Assembly (NCBI GenBank): GCA_025774865.1
Contig: JALGZO010000489.1
Location: forward strand, 1-7,168
Direction of reading: 5' to 3'
Source: a bacterium
GTDB lineage: Bacteria > ARS69
DNA length: 7,168 nucleotides
The notes under the pieces are model-generated. The model saw nothing but the letters and a program-made list of their open reading frames with translations, was not told the DNA's origin and searched no databases. The position numbers were made by a program, and so were the translations under genes. Below, one piece after another: positions 2-7,168 of this stretch (positions are counted from its first letter, which is position 1; each line of letters opens with the position of its first letter).

Positions 2-70
2 GGCCCGGTGTCCCTGGAGCCCGCGACCTGGGGCGCGATCAAGGCGAAGTACCGGGGAGGCGATCGCTGA
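2..70 (+). CDS. C-terminal tail of an upstream protein (partial, unidentified)
   Basis: Reading from base 2 gives 22 codons and a TGA at 68-70. The tail contains SLEPATWGAIKAKYR. The third codon position is G or C in about 20 of 22 codons, as in the confirmed genes here, whereas the neighbouring frame starting at base 1, which also stops within a few bases, has a much less biased third position. That makes this frame the likely end of a real gene entering from the left. The fragment is too short to assign a family or function, and the tail could still be chance. Confidence 0.42.
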   Translation, partial: GPVSLEPATWGAIKAKYRGGDR

Positions 71-207: not shown

Positions 208-213
208 GGTCGC

Positions 214-219
214 AGGAGG
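214..219 (+). promoter_or_regulatory. Shine-Dalgarno AGGAGG that selects ATG 226
   Basis: A perfect AGGAGG sits six bases upstream of the ATG at 226-228, an ideal spacing. It overlaps the GTG at 219-221, which is the first available start of the long metallopeptidase frame, so the ribosome cannot use that GTG with this site. The site therefore argues that translation begins at 226, in a different frame from the protease body. Confidence 0.72.
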
Positions 220-2246
220 TGAAGCATGCGCTGCCTGCCCCGTGTCCCCGACGAACTCGCTGCCGCCGCGGCCGCCGCCGCCATTCTCACGCTCGCCACC
301 CTCGCCCCGGGCACGGCCGTCCGGGCCGCGTGTCGCCCGAGGAGATGCGGGCCCGGATCGCGCGGGCGCGGGCGAAGATGAAGCCGCCCGTCTCCATTCC
401 TCCGTCTCCGGAGGGTCTGCGCCTCCGTGGCGGCGCTCCCTCCGACACGGGGGTCGCTCTCGTCTTGCTCTGCCAGTGGGCCGACGACCCGGCCGATACC
501 GTGGCGCACACCCCGGCGGCCTACGAGACGCTCCTCTTCTCCCAGGGGCAGGTCTCCACGGGGAGCATGCGCGAGTATTTCCTGGAGTCGTCGTACGGGT
601 CGTACTGGGTCGAAGGGCAGATCCACGGGTGGTACACGCAGCCGACCTACGACCACGGCAACTACTTCCGGGACTTCTTCGAGGCCGCCGACCCCTTCAT
701 CGACTACTCGGACTTCGACCGGGACAACGACGGCTACACGGACGCCGTGTGGATCTTCCACGCGGGACCCGGCCAGGAGGAGACCCACGATCCGAACGAC
801 ATCTGGTCCTTCGCCGTCTGGGGCCTGAATTACATGACCGACGACGGCATCATCATCGACCGATTCGCGTGCAATCCCGAGATGCACGCCGACGGTTCGA
901 TCATCACGATCCGCGTGGGGGCGCACGAGGCCACGCACGTCCTGGGGCTGCCGGACCTCTACGACTACGACGACAAGCTCGTCACGAGCACGTACTACAC
1001 GCCGAACGACTCGAACGATCATCCGCTCGTCGACTGGTGCGTGATGGGTTACTACGGCTACAACATCTGGTCGTACGGGACGCGTCAGGATCCGTCGCAC
1101 CATTGTGCGTGGGCGAAGAAGGAGCTGGGGTTCGTCGCCCCGATCACGATCGCCACCTCGCAGAAGGACGTGGAGGCGCCCGAGGTGCAGCTGAACCCGG
1201 TGGTGTACAAGGTCCGGCGCGGGGGCTCGCAGGAGTTCTTCCTGATCGAGAATCGAAACACGGAGTCCACCGCGATCTTCGATCACCTGGACTCGGACTT
1301 CTCGGCGTTCTACACGTGGTTCGAGTTCGGACAGAACCCGAAGGATCAGGGTCTTCTCATCAGCCACATCGACGACGCGGTGGGCAACAACACGGACGGA
1401 CCGAACGGTCCGCACTACATGGTGATCGTGGAGGACGCCGGCTACGACCCGGCGAATCCGTGGGACGGGGTGGACGAGTTCTCCGCCTGGTGGTATCCGC
1501 AGGAGACCCGGTTGAGTGCGACCTTCGCGACCGACGATGCGGGCCAGACCTCATTCACGCCGAACACGACGCCGAACTCGGACTGGTACAACAGCTCGAG
1601 CGGCATCTGGATCACGAACATCAGCGCGCCGGGTCCCGTCATGACGTTCGACATCGGATTCGGGAACGCGTGGCCGGCGATCACGAGCTGGTCCCCCGCC
1701 GAGCTCGACACGACCGTGGAGCTCCCGTCGATCGTGTCGCTGTCGGTCGTGGTGTTGGACGAAGACGGCGATCCCACTACGTATGAATGGTACGAGAACG
1801 GAGGGCTGGTCCAGTCCGGACCCGCGGCGAGCTACGACTTCACGGCGGATACGGGCGGCGCGGTGGATCAAGTGCTGGTCGTCGCCACCGACGGGTCGCT
1901 CGCAGACTCGCTGGAGTGGACGATCCGGACGGGCACGGCGACCGGCGTCGTCGCGGACGTGGGTGCCCAGGGGCGGCCGATCCTCACGGCGTCCCCGACA
2001 CCGTTCGATCGCTCCGTCACCGTGGAGTGGGCGCTCGCCCGGGGTGGAGACGCGAGGGTGAGCGTGCATGACCTTTCCGGGCGCCAGGTCGCGGTGCTCT
2101 TCGCGGGGCGGCAGAACGGAGCCGCGATGAGCCGCGTCTGGAGTGGGCGCGACGAGCTGGGGCGCGATCTGGCGTCGGGGGTCTATTTCGTCCGACTCGT
2201 GGCGGAGGGAGTGGTCGAGACACGGAAAGTGGTCAAGCTCAGATAG
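219..2246 (+). CDS. Secreted M6-family (immune inhibitor A-like) zinc metallopeptidase with Ig-like and FlgD-like C-terminal domains; N-terminus frameshifted
   Basis: This is an extracellular zinc endopeptidase of the M6 (InhA-like) family. Numbering from GTG 219, the catalytic domain spans roughly residues 60-480. It has the zinc-binding helix HEATHVLGLPD (236-246, the HExxHxxGxxD pattern; H236 and H240 are ligands, E237 the catalytic glutamate, D246 a possible third ligand). A Met-turn-like CVMGYYG follows (M276). DFDRDNDGYTD (165-175) looks like a calcium-binding loop. Residues 485-571 form a PKD/Ig-like module (TYEWYENG, ending LEWTIRT). Residues 590-675 are a FlgD-like Ig domain (SPTPF at 592-596, VSVHDLSGRQVAVL, LASGVYFVRL) of the kind found at C-termini of exported proteins in FCB bacteria. 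The first ~37 residues of this frame are arginine-rich and unlike a signal peptide. The real start is probably ATG 226 in the +1 frame, with a one-base frameshift near 310-335 (assembly error or true lesion). A conservative start within this frame would be GTG 330 or ATG 345. Substrates are unknown. Confidence 0.9.
   Translation: MKHALPAPCPRRTRCRRGRRRHSHARHPRPGHGRPGRVSPEEMRARIARARAKMKPPVSIPPSPEGLRLRGGAPSDTGVALVLLCQWADDPADTVAHTPAAYETLLFSQGQVSTGSMREYFLESSYGSYWVEGQIHGWYTQPTYDHGNYFRDFFEAADPFIDYSDFDRDNDGYTDAVWIFHAGPGQEETHDPNDIWSFAVWGLNYMTDDGIIIDRFACNPEMHADGSIITIRVGAHEATHVLGLPDLYDYDDKLVTSTYYTPNDSNDHPLVDWCVMGYYGYNIWSYGTRQDPSHHCAWAKKELGFVAPITIATSQKDVEAPEVQLNPVVYKVRRGGSQEFFLIENRNTESTAIFDHLDSDFSAFYTWFEFGQNPKDQGLLISHIDDAVGNNTDGPNGPHYMVIVEDAGYDPANPWDGVDEFSAWWYPQETRLSATFATDDAGQTSFTPNTTPNSDWYNSSSGIWITNISAPGPVMTFDIGFGNAWPAITSWSPAELDTTVELPSIVSLSVVVLDEDGDPTTYEWYENGGLVQSGPAASYDFTADTGGAVDQVLVVATDGSLADSLEWTIRTGTATGVVADVGAQGRPILTASPTPFDRSVTVEWALARGGDARVSVHDLSGRQVAVLFAGRQNGAAMSRVWSGRDELGRDLASGVYFVRLVAEGVVETRKVVKLR
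226..381 (+). other. Out-of-frame signal-peptide segment of the M6 metallopeptidase
   Basis: From ATG 226 the frame encodes a textbook Sec signal peptide. The n-region has two arginines (MRCLPRVPDE). The hydrophobic core is LAAAAAAAAILTLATLA at residues 11-27, including eight consecutive alanines from a GCC/GCG tract at 259-282. The c-region PGTAVRA allows cleavage after Ala34. The frame then runs into a TGA at 379-381. The metallopeptidase body continues in the frame one base earlier, where VSPEEMRARI begins at 330. One base missing between about 310 and 335 would join the two. The signal peptide is seen directly; that the parts belong to one gene is inferred from the Shine-Dalgarno, the adjacency and the absence of any signal sequence in the body frame. 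Confidence 0.7.
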
Positions 2247-2293: not shown

Positions 2294-3697
2294 ATGAGCC
2301 TGCCCATGCGCCGCGTTCAGCTGCTTTCTCTTATTTGCTTGTCGCTCGCTTGCGGCGAGGATTCCGAGCTCGCCTTCGGTGAACGCGCTCGCCCCGATCA
2401 CGCTCCGGTCCTGATTCTCGCAGTGGACGGGCTCGAGTGGGACGAAGCGCTGCCGCTCCTGCGCGAGGACGAGCTTCCGACGCTCGCGAAGCTCATGGCC
2501 GCCGGTCGCTTCGGCCGCCTGCGCAGCATGAAGCCGACGCTCTCTCCCATCATCTGGACGACGGTCGCGACCGGCAAGTCACCGCCGAAGCACGGAATCC
2601 TCGGATTCGGCAAGACCGACGGGCCGGGAGGGCCCGTCGTGTCCGTATTCAACAATCTCGACCGGCGCACCAAGGCGTTCTGGGAGATTCTCTCCGACCG
2701 GCGGCTTCGCGTCGCAGTGATTGGCTGGTGGTTGACCTATCCAGCCGATCCGGTGAACGGACTCATGGTGGCTCAAGTGAACACGCTCGAGCAGGCAGAG
2801 GCTGGGGGAACGAATCGAATCAAGGGAGGAGTCGTCGCCGGCCTCTCGAACCAGGTTCATCCGCCGGATCGGGAACCGGAGATTCTCTCTATCCACGACC
2901 GCGTGTCGGAGTCCCTATCGCTCCGACTTCGAGAAATCCTCGGGCAGTCCACGGCCGCCGAGTCGAAGCTCGAACGGAAACTGTGGAGCGACAGTCGCTG
3001 GGCGATCCGGGCGGACGCGACGTACCTCGAGATCGCCCGGGCATGTGATCCGCGCTCTTTCGACGTGGTCGCCCTCTACCTCGGCGGCACCGACGTCGTT
3101 GGTCATCGGTTCTGGAGGTACACGCATCCGAATGCCTTTGTCGATCCGCCGGACGCGGAAGCGATCCAGTCCTTCGGCGACCTGGTCCCCGATTACTACC
3201 GGTACGTCGACCGGGAGCTGGGGCGACTGATCGAGGCCTACGGCGAGCCGGTGACCGTGATGGTCGTATCCGATCACGGGATGCGCGCTACGAACACGCA
3301 GTTGATCTGGGATCCGAACGGTGAGAGCGCTCCAGTCTCCGGCGGACACGTCGACGCCCCTCCCGGCCTGGTGATCGTATCCGGACCGGGGATTCGCAGG
3401 CCGCAGACGCCGGTTCCTTTGGAAGAGCTGGAGGCGTCGAGCCTGCCGTTCGTGGGCTCCGTAGCTGATGTGACGCCGACGCTACTCGCGCATCTCGGCG
3501 TCCCCGTGGGGCGCGACATGGAGGGAGAGGTCTGGTGGTCGGTGATCGAGCGATCCGCGGACGAGGCGGCGGTCGTACCGACCCATGACGACCGGGCCTG
3601 GAAACGTAATCGTGAGCAACGGCGAGCCGAAGGCATCATCATTCCGGCCCAGGACGGTCGCCTCGAGCAGCTACGCGCGCTCGGTTACATCGAGTAG
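2294..3697 (+). CDS. Type I phosphodiesterase / alkaline phosphatase-superfamily lipoprotein
   Basis: This is a metal-dependent phosphoesterase of the nucleotide pyrophosphatase/phosphodiesterase (PF01663-like) type, probably anchored by lipid outside the cytoplasm. From ATG 2294 (467 residues), the two-metal site is complete. It has D45 in ILAVDGLEW and the nucleophile S84 in the TLSPIIWTTVATG segment, aligned with the Thr/Ser of the family's TFPNHYSIVTG. It also has D267 and H271 in GGTDVVGHRFW, D327 and H328 in VVSDHGM, and H352 in GGHVD. The N-terminus MRRVQLLSLICLSLAC has a short basic region, a hydrophobic core and a PROSITE-compatible lipobox ending at Cys20 (-3 is Ser rather than the usual Leu). 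The frame is open back to GTG 2246, which overlaps the preceding TAG, but that start would bury the signal sequence behind about 20 extra residues. ATG 2306 is an equally good start; neither has a clear Shine-Dalgarno. The C-terminal LRALGYIE resembles the tails of sulfatase-like proteins. The substrate cannot be told from sequence. Confidence 0.9.
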   Translation: MSLPMRRVQLLSLICLSLACGEDSELAFGERARPDHAPVLILAVDGLEWDEALPLLREDELPTLAKLMAAGRFGRLRSMKPTLSPIIWTTVATGKSPPKHGILGFGKTDGPGGPVVSVFNNLDRRTKAFWEILSDRRLRVAVIGWWLTYPADPVNGLMVAQVNTLEQAEAGGTNRIKGGVVAGLSNQVHPPDREPEILSIHDRVSESLSLRLREILGQSTAAESKLERKLWSDSRWAIRADATYLEIARACDPRSFDVVALYLGGTDVVGHRFWRYTHPNAFVDPPDAEAIQSFGDLVPDYYRYVDRELGRLIEAYGEPVTVMVVSDHGMRATNTQLIWDPNGESAPVSGGHVDAPPGLVIVSGPGIRRPQTPVPLEELEASSLPFVGSVADVTPTLLAHLGVPVGRDMEGEVWWSVIERSADEAAVVPTHDDRAWKRNREQRRAEGIIIPAQDGRLEQLRALGYIE

Positions 3698-3698
3698 T

Positions 3699-3731
3699 GG
3701 GGGTCGCTCGAGCCCCGACCCTACGGGTCGG
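3699..3731. terminator. Overlapping hairpins at the convergent gene junction
   Basis: The two converging genes end 23 bases apart, at 3697 on the plus strand and 3721 on the minus strand. GGGTCG (3701-3706) can pair with CGACCC (3716-3721). Alternatively CCGACCC (3715-3721) pairs perfectly with GGGTCGG (3725-3731) around a three-base TAC loop. The CGACCC arm is shared, so the two stems exclude each other. The second stem contains the TAG stop of the minus-strand gene. There is no T-run on either side, so classical intrinsic termination is not shown; a bidirectional terminator or 3'-end block is the likely role. Confidence 0.4.
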
Positions 3732-6700
3732 ACCCCGTTCTCGTCCCGGCGCCCAATAGCTCCCGGGCGCGCGCCGCCGCCGTCGATTCCGGAGCCAGGT
3801 CGACGACCGCGAGCAGATGCTCGCGTCCCTCCTCCAGCGCCCCACGATCCGTGAGGATCCGACCGAGCAGAAGCTCCGCCCACGGCAGGGCGGCCCCCGC
3901 CTCACTCGCCTTTCTCAGATCTGCCTCTGCCTCCGCGAGATTGCCTTCGGCCGCGGCGATGCTTCCCCGGACGGCCCACGCCGCGGCCATGCGGGGGTCG
4001 AGAGCGATCACTCGATCGATCGCTTGGCGCGCCGGTGCGAGCCGCTCGAGATCACGAAGGACGATCGCGAGCTCCAACTGCGCGCGCACGTGCTCCGGCC
4101 GGATCTCCACCGCTTGGGTGAACAGCTCCGCCGCGTCCTCCAACCGCCCCTCCTCGCGCCGCTGCCGGCCGAGCAGATACCAATGGCCCGCGTCCTCGGA
4201 GCCCGCAGCGATTTGTGTCTCGAGCGCAGTCTCCAGCCGCGCTGCTTGCGCTACGAGGAAGCCCGCAATCGGGTCGCGAGGCAGGATCGAGAGCGCCTCT
4301 TCGTATGCGCGGTGAGCGAGCTGGCCCCGACCGGCCAGCTCGTGGGTCAGCCCCTCGAGAACGTGCGCCGAAGCGGCGCGTCGCTTTGCCAGGCGCTCTC
4401 GCACGCGACGTTCCCCCTCGGGATCGGGCGCGAGATTGATGAGGTACGGAAGGATCGATTGCCGCCGCTTCACGATCGTCTCGAAGTTCCGCGCCCAGAG
4501 CAGACGATCCCCGCGGGCGAGCACTCGCGGCGCCGAGAACTCCAGATGGGGTCGGTCGTAGGTGTTGATGCGCGCGTCGCCGGTGAGCTCTTCGAGAGCG
4601 GCGGCGTCGAGCATGAAGCTGTCGAGCAGAAGGAACGGCGTGAAGAGCTGCACCTCGGCCAGGTCGTTCTGGATCGCCGGCGTCCCTCGGATGCGTGCGG
4701 TCACGCGGGAGAAGTCGATCGTGAGCGGTTCGTCGTCCTTCCATCCGAGAAGGAGAGCGTTGCGCGTGATGCCGTTCGTGGCGATCCAGACCGACGAAGT
4801 GGGGAACACTTCGTGAAACGTCCGTAGCAACATCCGCAGATCGTCTTCGGAAAGCAGCGCGATCGGAAACCACGAGGACATCATGCCGTGTTCGTTCAGG
4901 CGGGTGCGACAGAGCTCGAAGTAGTCGCGCGCGTAGAGATCCGAGCTTCCCCGGAAGATGGGATGCACCGAGTCGTTGAGGATCAGGTCGAAGCTTCGGT
5001 CCGTGTGCTTCGCGTAATTCTTCGCGTCTTCGATCACGATTTCGAGTCGCGGATTCGCGTACACCTCCTCGTTGATCGCTCGGAAATGGGCCCCGGCCTC
5101 GATCACCTCCGGAGAGATGTCGCATCCCACGAGGCGCCTCACTTCCGGATGGAGGAGAATCGAGTGCGCGGTCTCGCCACTTCCGAGTCCCACTTGGAGG
5201 ACTTCGCGAGGATCGGGATGCAGCAGGAGTGGGATGTGGGCTTGGAGCTTCTGCGTGGTTCGGAGCATGAAGCTCGTTCCCGCGACGTCAGCCCCGTTGA
5301 TCGACAGGATCCGCGAGCCGGGAGAGTCGTGGATCGTCACGGTGCCGGTGACCCCCTCCCGGTAGTACGAGATCTTCCCTCCCCGAAGATTGATACCGAA
5401 GATGGGAAGGAATGCCCGCTCCGGCAACAGGAACGAGACCCCGAGGATCACGGCGGCGGGGATCAACGCGAACACCGAACGGATCGGCGAGGGCCGCGTC
5501 CTGCAGGACGCCAGAAGCAGAACCCCACCGAGAAGCGCGCTCGCGATCGCGAGAGCGGTGATCGTCAGCTGCGTGCCAAGGTACGGGATCAACACGAACC
5601 CGGCGGCGAAGGATCCGAGAACCGCGCCGGCCGTGTTCACCGCGAGCATCGTCCCCACGCTTCGGCCCACGTGTTCGAGGTCGCGCGTGACGAGCCGGGA
5701 CACGATGGGAAACGTGGCTCCCATCAGGAGCGTGGGAACGAGAATGACGAGCGCGGCCTCTACGAGCTTCACGAGCGCCAGCGCGTTCCAGCTCTCGACC
5801 CGCAACAGGATGATCAAGCTGTCGTGAATGTCGGGGAAGCGATACAGAAGCGCGATCGTGCTCAGAGCTGCGGCGCCGATTCCGATCTCGAGGAGTCCGA
5901 AGATCCGGAACCCCTTCGCCGGATCACGAACCTCCCGGGCGAAGAGGAGGCTGCCGACGCCGAGGCCGCCCAGGAATACCGTCAGCATGATCGTGAACGC
6001 GTGAACGGAAGCCGAGAGCACGTAAAGAAGAACGCGCGTCCACGCCACCTCGTACGCGAGGGCCAGGAACCCCGACGCGCTGATCGCGGCGAGGGCGAGC
6101 CTCGTCTGGAATCGACCGCGGACGGGAGTGAGCCCTTCCGACCCGGAAGCGTCCGCAACCACGGCGGTGACCTCCGCTTCGGCCCGGAGTGACCTTCGCC
6201 CGAGGGCGAGCGCCGCGATTCCGATCGCGATGTTCCCCGCGGCCGCCAGATAGACGGTGCCGCGGACGCCCAGCGTCGCGATGAGAAAGAAGCCGGCGGC
6301 GAAGCACCCGATCATGGCGCCGAGCGTGTTGACGGCGTAGAGGTGTCCCAGCGAGCGGCCCACGCCGGCGCGCGTCCTGGTCCAGTACCGGACGAGTATG
6401 GGAAGGGTGCCCCCCATGAACGCCGTCGGGACGAGCAACAGCCCGAACGAGAGGCCGAACCGGACGAGGCTCATCGTCGTGAACGACGGCTGCCACTGGC
6501 GGTGGATCCCCGTGACGAGATACCCGAGCACCTCGAGAGCGGGAAGAATCAGAACCGCGGTGACTCCGACCCCGATCTCGAGGAATCCGTACAGGCGAAG
6601 CTCGTCGCTGCGGCGATCGGCGCGCGCGCCGAGGATCCGGGCCCCGATCGCCAGCCCCGCCATGAACGCGGCGAGCACGGAGCTCACGGCGAGCGCCGTG

Positions 6701-6846
6701 GATCCGAAGACGAGCGTGAAGAGGCGCGTCCAGGCGACCTCGTGAACGAGACCGGTTCCGCCCGAGAGCAGAAACAGGAGAAGGAGGATGGAACGGGGCG
6801 GTGCCCGCGGTTCGGGTCGGATCACGGCCTCCCCAATGAGGACCAC
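3721..6846 (-). CDS. Fused MFS-like membrane protein / spermidine synthase-like domain / TPR protein
   Basis: This 1041-residue polytopic membrane protein has three parts. Residues 18-447 are two homologous MFS-like halves with about six membrane segments each, plus another segment at about 456-474. Residues 492-710 are a spermidine-synthase-like, SAM-binding-fold domain with the glycine loop VGLGSG (552-557), acidic D576 in CDISPE, the DAKNY segment (607-611) and LNDSVHP (623-629). The family tail NTYDRPHLEFSAPR follows at 761-774. Residues 828-1031 form about five TPR-like repeats. In authentic spermidine synthases the active site reads DSxDP; here the first Asp (D625) is kept and the second is His (H628), so aminopropyl transfer to putrescine is doubtful. 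The layout matches the 'fused MFS/spermidine synthase' proteins known from genomes, whose reaction is not established. The start is uncertain: GTG 6846 has no Shine-Dalgarno, and GTG 6825 has GGGGAGG only two bases ahead. Either keeps the N-terminus cytoplasmic. It may follow the minus-strand gene ending at 6905 in one transcript. Confidence 0.9.
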   Translation of the reverse strand: MVLIGEAVIRPEPRAPPRSILLLLFLLSGGTGLVHEVAWTRLFTLVFGSTALAVSSVLAAFMAGLAIGARILGARADRRSDELRLYGFLEIGVGVTAVLILPALEVLGYLVTGIHRQWQPSFTTMSLVRFGLSFGLLLVPTAFMGGTLPILVRYWTRTRAGVGRSLGHLYAVNTLGAMIGCFAAGFFLIATLGVRGTVYLAAAGNIAIGIAALALGRRSLRAEAEVTAVVADASGSEGLTPVRGRFQTRLALAAISASGFLALAYEVAWTRVLLYVLSASVHAFTIMLTVFLGGLGVGSLLFAREVRDPAKGFRIFGLLEIGIGAAALSTIALLYRFPDIHDSLIILLRVESWNALALVKLVEAALVILVPTLLMGATFPIVSRLVTRDLEHVGRSVGTMLAVNTAGAVLGSFAAGFVLIPYLGTQLTITALAIASALLGGVLLLASCRTRPSPIRSVFALIPAAVILGVSFLLPERAFLPIFGINLRGGKISYYREGVTGTVTIHDSPGSRILSINGADVAGTSFMLRTTQKLQAHIPLLLHPDPREVLQVGLGSGETAHSILLHPEVRRLVGCDISPEVIEAGAHFRAINEEVYANPRLEIVIEDAKNYAKHTDRSFDLILNDSVHPIFRGSSDLYARDYFELCRTRLNEHGMMSSWFPIALLSEDDLRMLLRTFHEVFPTSSVWIATNGITRNALLLGWKDDEPLTIDFSRVTARIRGTPAIQNDLAEVQLFTPFLLLDSFMLDAAALEELTGDARINTYDRPHLEFSAPRVLARGDRLLWARNFETIVKRRQSILPYLINLAPDPEGERRVRERLAKRRAASAHVLEGLTHELAGRGQLAHRAYEEALSILPRDPIAGFLVAQAARLETALETQIAAGSEDAGHWYLLGRQRREEGRLEDAAELFTQAVEIRPEHVRAQLELAIVLRDLERLAPARQAIDRVIALDPRMAAAWAVRGSIAAAEGNLAEAEADLRKASEAGAALPWAELLLGRILTDRGALEEGREHLLAVVDLAPESTAAARARELLGAGTRTGSDP
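5506..6768 (-). repeat. Internal duplication: two homologous MFS-like halves within the fusion protein
   Basis: Residues 27-215 and 257-447 of the 1041-residue protein are tandem copies offset by 230-231 residues. Matching blocks are LVHEVAWTR (33-41) and LAYEVAWTR (263-271), then YGFLEIGVG (86-94) and FGLLEIGIG (316-324). Further along, MGGTLPI (144-150) matches MGATFPI (375-381), and AVNTLGAMIGCFAAGF (171-186) matches AVNTAGAVLGSFAAGF (402-417). The copies share motifs rather than DNA identity, so the duplication is old. It reflects the two-fold pseudo-symmetry expected of MFS folds, but is unusually easy to see here. Confidence 0.85.
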
Positions 6847-6904: not shown

Positions 6905-7168
6905 TCAGCGGATGTGCACGACTCGCTTCGTGATCACCTCGCCGGCGCCTTCCAGCCGGGCGAAGTACGCTCCCGCGGCGACCCTGTCGCCGCCGTGATC
7001 GCGCCCGTCCCAGACTCGCGCGACGCGCCCGGCTGGCAGAGGCTCGTCGGCCACGACCGCGACGAGTCGGCCCTGGACGTCGTGGATGCTGAGCCGAACG
7101 TGCCCCGCGCGGGGCAAGGTCGGCGTGAGCTCGATATGCCCGCGGAAAGGATTCGGTCCCGCGTCCAG
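6905..7168 (-). CDS. 3' end of an exported protein with a FlgD-like C-terminal Ig domain (partial)
   Basis: The minus strand is open from the window edge to a TGA at 6907-6905, giving 87 residues without a start. A TTG at 7117 is internal, because the upstream codons continue the domain. The fragment begins at the family's usual entry motif GPNPFRG and continues through VRLSIHDVQGRLVAVV, VARVWDGRD and VAAGAYFARL to a short basic end (ITKRVVHIR). This is the FlgD-like Ig fold used as a C-terminal domain on secreted proteins of FCB-type bacteria. It is clearly related to the last ~85 residues of the M6 metallopeptidase in this window (VSVHDLSGRQVAVL, SRVWSGRDELG, LASGVYFVRL). The main domain lies outside the window, so the function of the whole protein is unknown. 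Confidence 0.8.
   Translation of the reverse strand: MDAGPNPFRGHIELTPTLPRAGHVRLSIHDVQGRLVAVVADEPLPAGRVARVWDGRDHGGDRVAAGAYFARLEGAGEVITKRVVHIR

Follow-up and report, generated by a model that had tools for sequence, protein, structure and literature searches.

Apparent loss of about 82 nucleotides between the signal peptide and the propeptide of an M6-family metalloprotease gene in a bacterium related to Candidatus Eisenbacteria

A gene for an M6-family metalloprotease appears to have lost approximately 82 nt between its signal peptide and its propeptide (estimated probability about 93%), judging from the comparison with its orthologues. The gene lies near the start of the window, i.e. the whole stretch of 7168 bp analysed here, which is the entire contig C493 in a draft genome from an uncultivated relative of Candidatus Eisenbacteria. 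The locus looks like that of an ordinary secreted metalloprotease whose prepro region is broken or mis-assembled, and not like a new mechanism. The features concerned are the following.

214–219, + strand: Shine–Dalgarno sequence AGGAGG, by direct reading, with a six-base spacer to ATG 226.
226–327, + strand: segment coding for a Sec-type signal peptide, MRCLPRVPDELAAAAAAAAILTLATLAPGTAVRA, the true start of the protease gene, by homology to MRSLPRVSIDLVAVAAAAILAIAVLSPGRTARA of the orthologue.
219–329, + strand: spurious arginine-rich N-terminal extension from GTG 219, which is signal-peptide DNA in the alternative frame and is absent from five of five orthologues.
About 326–333, + strand: deletion junction, at which 82 nt are absent relative to the nearest orthologue; the best-scoring breakpoint in the alignment is 328–330.
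330–2246, + strand: M6-family metalloprotease body, out of frame with the signal peptide, with the motif HEATHVLGLPDLYD and matches to TIGR03296 and TIGR04183.
379–381, + strand: stop codon closing the signal-peptide frame beyond the junction, by frame reading.

The whole window was scanned for AGGAGG located 5–9 nt before an ATG, and only one such site was detected on the + strand. The translation from ATG 226 begins with MRCLPRVPDELAAAAAAAAILTLATLAPGTAVRAACRPRR and stops at 379–381; as the sequence is written, this start would yield only a truncated 51-residue peptide. The 219 frame is open through 2246, and its opening residues are VKHALPAPCPRRTRCRRGRRRH. The first 37 residues of this frame are rich in arginine and lack hydrophobicity. 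The best 15-residue hydropathy is +2.05 at the N-terminus from ATG 226 and −0.63 at the one that the 219 frame gives. Window positions 213–328 are 77% identical (E = 5e-19) to the DNA upstream of the orthologous gene body. This match indicates that the signal-peptide DNA is homologous and is not a chance open frame. The original prediction had described AGGAGG, six bases and ATG 226 leading into a signal peptide with the stop at 379–381, and a protease lying in another frame with an arginine-rich, non-hydrophobic N-terminus. Every coordinate examined agrees with the former, and the latter is seen in the 219 frame.

In the profile search, the body scores 119.3 bits against TIGR03296 (M6 metalloprotease domain), for which the curated cut-off is 110.8. 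The zinc-binding HExxH followed by GxPDLYD is present in the translation, and the H, E, H and PDLYD residues are invariant across the six aligned sequences. At the C-terminus, TIGR04183 (T9SS type A sorting domain) scores 30.3 bits against a cut-off of 23. The window protein is under the cut-off of PF18962, the Pfam counterpart of TIGR04183, and under that of PF05547, of which the nearest orthologue is above the cut-off. An in-frame signal peptide, a usual though not strictly defining M6 trait, is absent from the window copy, where the peptide is out of frame. The body is still homologous to the M6 family, and the copy as written is broken.

The window resembles the M6 metalloproteases (TIGR03296; immune inhibitor A type, PF05547) in its domain score, the HExxHxxGxPDLYD motif and the secreted architecture of its orthologues, and differs from them in that the frame is broken ahead of the propeptide. 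It is also similar to T9SS type A cargo (TIGR04183) in the C-terminal domain and in the presence of a PorU-like sortase in the genome, whereas the gene as written has no in-frame Sec signal. T9SS cargo without a Sec signal is unable to reach the periplasm. The sortase, the one component for which the genome was searched, was detected at C615 (NF033707, 515.4 bits against a cut-off of 420). An intact copy would encode a secreted metalloprotease of the M6 family that ends in a T9SS-type sorting domain; as its families suggest, the signal peptide would direct it through Sec, and the type IX system would then sort it. In the contig as written, about 82 nt are absent, so that the export signal and the enzyme no longer share a frame and part of the propeptide is gone. 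The search for solved structures by sequence gave zero matches, and the literature search returned no paper mentioning Eisenbacteria together with metalloproteases.

Five orthologues, all from other draft genomes, were compared with the window, and their identities are 79% (L033), 63–64% (L034 and L035) and 41–44% (L036 and L037). The nearest one, L033, is JALGZR010000069.1, evidently identical with contig G002:C280, and the genome G002 belongs to the same family as the window's genome. L033 is one frame of 701 aa, and its body shows 79% amino-acid identity to that of the window. A relative closer than L033 was not found in the collection, because the phylum is represented there by five genomes. 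In five of five orthologues the signal peptide and the body are located in a single frame. The alignment proposed with the original prediction thus bears out its view of the signal peptide as part of the protease. Arginine-rich orthologue starts, or starts equivalent to 330 or 345, had been named as evidence that would speak against this view; both were looked for, and each was found in zero of the five. Before the body, every orthologue has a segment with the core F-D-V-P, F-D-L-P, Y-D-L-P, L-D-I-P or F-D-M-S, and a Gly is present some ten residues further on.

The distance from the start codon to VSPEEM is 183 nt in L033 and 104 nt in the window. According to the DNA alignment, the difference is composed of an 82-nt gap in the window and one extra codon (3 nt) in the window's signal peptide. 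Local alignment to the orthologue gives the same two blocks, 213–328 and 330–2230. The absent stretch codes for 27 residues around GFLVPPAENPDLVLFDVPAEEVERQLG in the orthologue. These residues are located between the signal peptide and the catalytic domain, and by position they belong to the propeptide. The F/Y/L-D-x-P/S core of the absent piece recurs in the other four orthologues.

The original prediction was right about the observation and about the disruption of the frame, and the orthologue comparison overturns what it said of the nature and size of the disruption. It had proposed that a single base missing within about 310–335 reconciles the two frames; instead, 82 nt are gone at about 326–333. 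As 82 = 3 × 27 + 1, the effect on the frame is equal to that of one absent base, and the single-base reading was reached because frames alone cannot separate the two cases. A one-base error of sequencing or assembly within the C/G runs at 305–311 or 323–325, one of the candidates it had listed, has this identical frame effect on its side. Nevertheless, it is very unlikely. Both runs align with the nearest orthologue without indels, after which 82 nt drop out at once, and the propeptide segment of all five orthologues is absent from the window. A phase-variation site had also been put forward as a candidate. We reject a homopolymer site of this kind: neither a repeat tract as in phase variation (homopolymer or tandem) nor an evident repeat at the junction ends was found, and the two runs are free of indels as described above.

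Another explanation accepts the two frames as functional, either by programmed frameshifting or by an intended leaderless start at GTG 219, GTG 330 or ATG 345. The body frame is indeed open upstream as far as GTG 219. On the other hand, neither arrangement is used by any of the five orthologues, all of which have one continuous frame. The first base of GTG 219 is also the last of AGGAGG, which cannot serve it. ATG 345 is preceded by GAGGAG without a spacer, and this GAGGAG corresponds to conserved Glu-Glu codons in the nearest orthologue. A slip at the junction could join the signal peptide to the body and still could not supply the absent segment. We therefore give this explanation almost no weight. 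Programmed frameshifting, which had been ranked the least likely candidate from the beginning, is excluded for practical purposes, as the frame split is conserved in none of the five orthologues.

The body was compared with that of L033, resulting in dN of 0.155, dS of 0.677 and dN/dS of about 0.23, with no stops. The substitutions at the three codon positions are 107/79/221 and are thus concentrated at the third position. The low dN/dS and the third-position excess indicate that purifying selection has acted on the body during most of the period since the two copies diverged, the constraint having lasted until recently or lasting still. The constraint is equally compatible with an assembly error and with a recent loss. 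A real reversible deletion or population variant that switches secretion of the protease off while the body stays under selection is highly improbable.

With regard to the cause of the gap, an error in assembly or consensus, close to where a short contig ends, is somewhat likelier than a real mutation. The genome containing C493 is a 4.7-Mb draft of 785 contigs (completeness 92.65%, contamination 8.3%), and the lesion is located 328 nt from a contig end. Contig ends are the weakest parts of assemblies. A survey of frame breaks was performed with 82 contigs of the window's genome against 61 stretches of G002. By count, about 20 of the listed pairs are true gene pairs, and many others are antisense or off-frame shadows; the sample was small and non-random, having been selected in part for resemblance to the tail of the protease described here. 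Besides the window, one more break was detected in the genome, a one-base loss relative to the G002 orthologue at about 274–276 of L052 (G000:C510). This break is 276 nt from the contig start, and the protein is metalloprotease-like (reprolysin-type by eye) with a sorting tail. Because both breaks lie less than 330 nt from a contig end, we lean to assembly error, although so small a sample cannot decide the matter. Many purported bacterial pseudogenes stem from errors of assembly, the more so when coverage is low (PMC11017572). The window is similar to these spurious pseudogenes in that a conserved gene has a frame disruption in a fragmented assembly; it differs in having an 82-nt gap rather than a small indel or an internal stop, and a technical origin is here a candidate.

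Several features count against an assembly error. Short-read errors do not usually take the form of an 82-nt gap that lacks an evident repeat on either side, and the contig's two remaining complete genes are open in frame. Relative to the orthologue, the 33 codons of the signal-peptide segment have changed evenly over the codon positions (8/7/6), as would also be expected under relaxed constraint following a true loss. Signal peptides evolve fast in any case. A genuine recent 82-nt deletion, which would have inactivated the gene in the strain or in part of the population, is a serious possibility, though at rather less than even odds. The cell would then produce just the short peptide that starts at ATG 226; an internal start could at most give a cytosolic protease. 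The contig reads in this way, the junction offers no evident repeat for an assembler to collapse, and the frames of the neighbouring genes are open. A recent loss would leave the dN/dS of the body just as low, and the same genome has two more M6 genes, which could act as backup. The position near a contig end, the fragmented genome and the second frame break by another contig end are unfavourable to a genuine deletion.

The importance of an assembly error or a deletion here is limited to annotation. A gene caller would give the protease a false arginine-rich N-terminus that lacks an export signal, and in a protein catalogue it would be classed as cytosolic. A one-base explanation drawn from frames alone can conceal a loss of 82 bases, and only orthologues reveal such a loss.

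The other genes of the window were also inspected. The gene at 2294–3697 (+ strand) belongs to the type I phosphodiesterase/nucleotide pyrophosphatase family (Pfam PF01663). Its product is probably a lipoprotein, as suggested by LSLAC after ATG 2294, and GTG 2246, the start listed for it, probably lies too far upstream. The gene at 3721–6846 (− strand) is one open frame of 1041 aa; judged by eye, its product resembles a membrane-bound, spermidine-synthase-like protein that has a TPR-like region at its C-terminus. At 6905–7168 (− strand), the T9SS-type/FlgD-like C-terminal tail of another gene is cut by the contig end; this tail shows 41% identity to the tail of the window protease.

The end of yet another gene is present at 2–70 (+ strand), ...VSLEPATWGAIKAKYRGGDR. 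Its motif, in the form VExxSWGxIKxLYR (core SWGxIKxLYR), recurs at protein C-termini in the window's bacterial family. The DNA pattern for the motif gave 13, 10, 22, 3 and 29 matches in the family genomes G000 to G004, respectively, at most one match in each of 16 other genomes, and zero matches in the reversed control. Pfam and NCBIfam did not recognize the three motif proteins examined. Six of the eight matches in fetched loci end exactly at a stop codon, e.g. VESGSWGSIKSLYR and VDSESWGGIKSLYR, and several of the motif-bearing proteins open with a signal peptide by eye. The motif may be a lineage-specific, perhaps undescribed, C-terminal sorting or anchoring signal of exported proteins.
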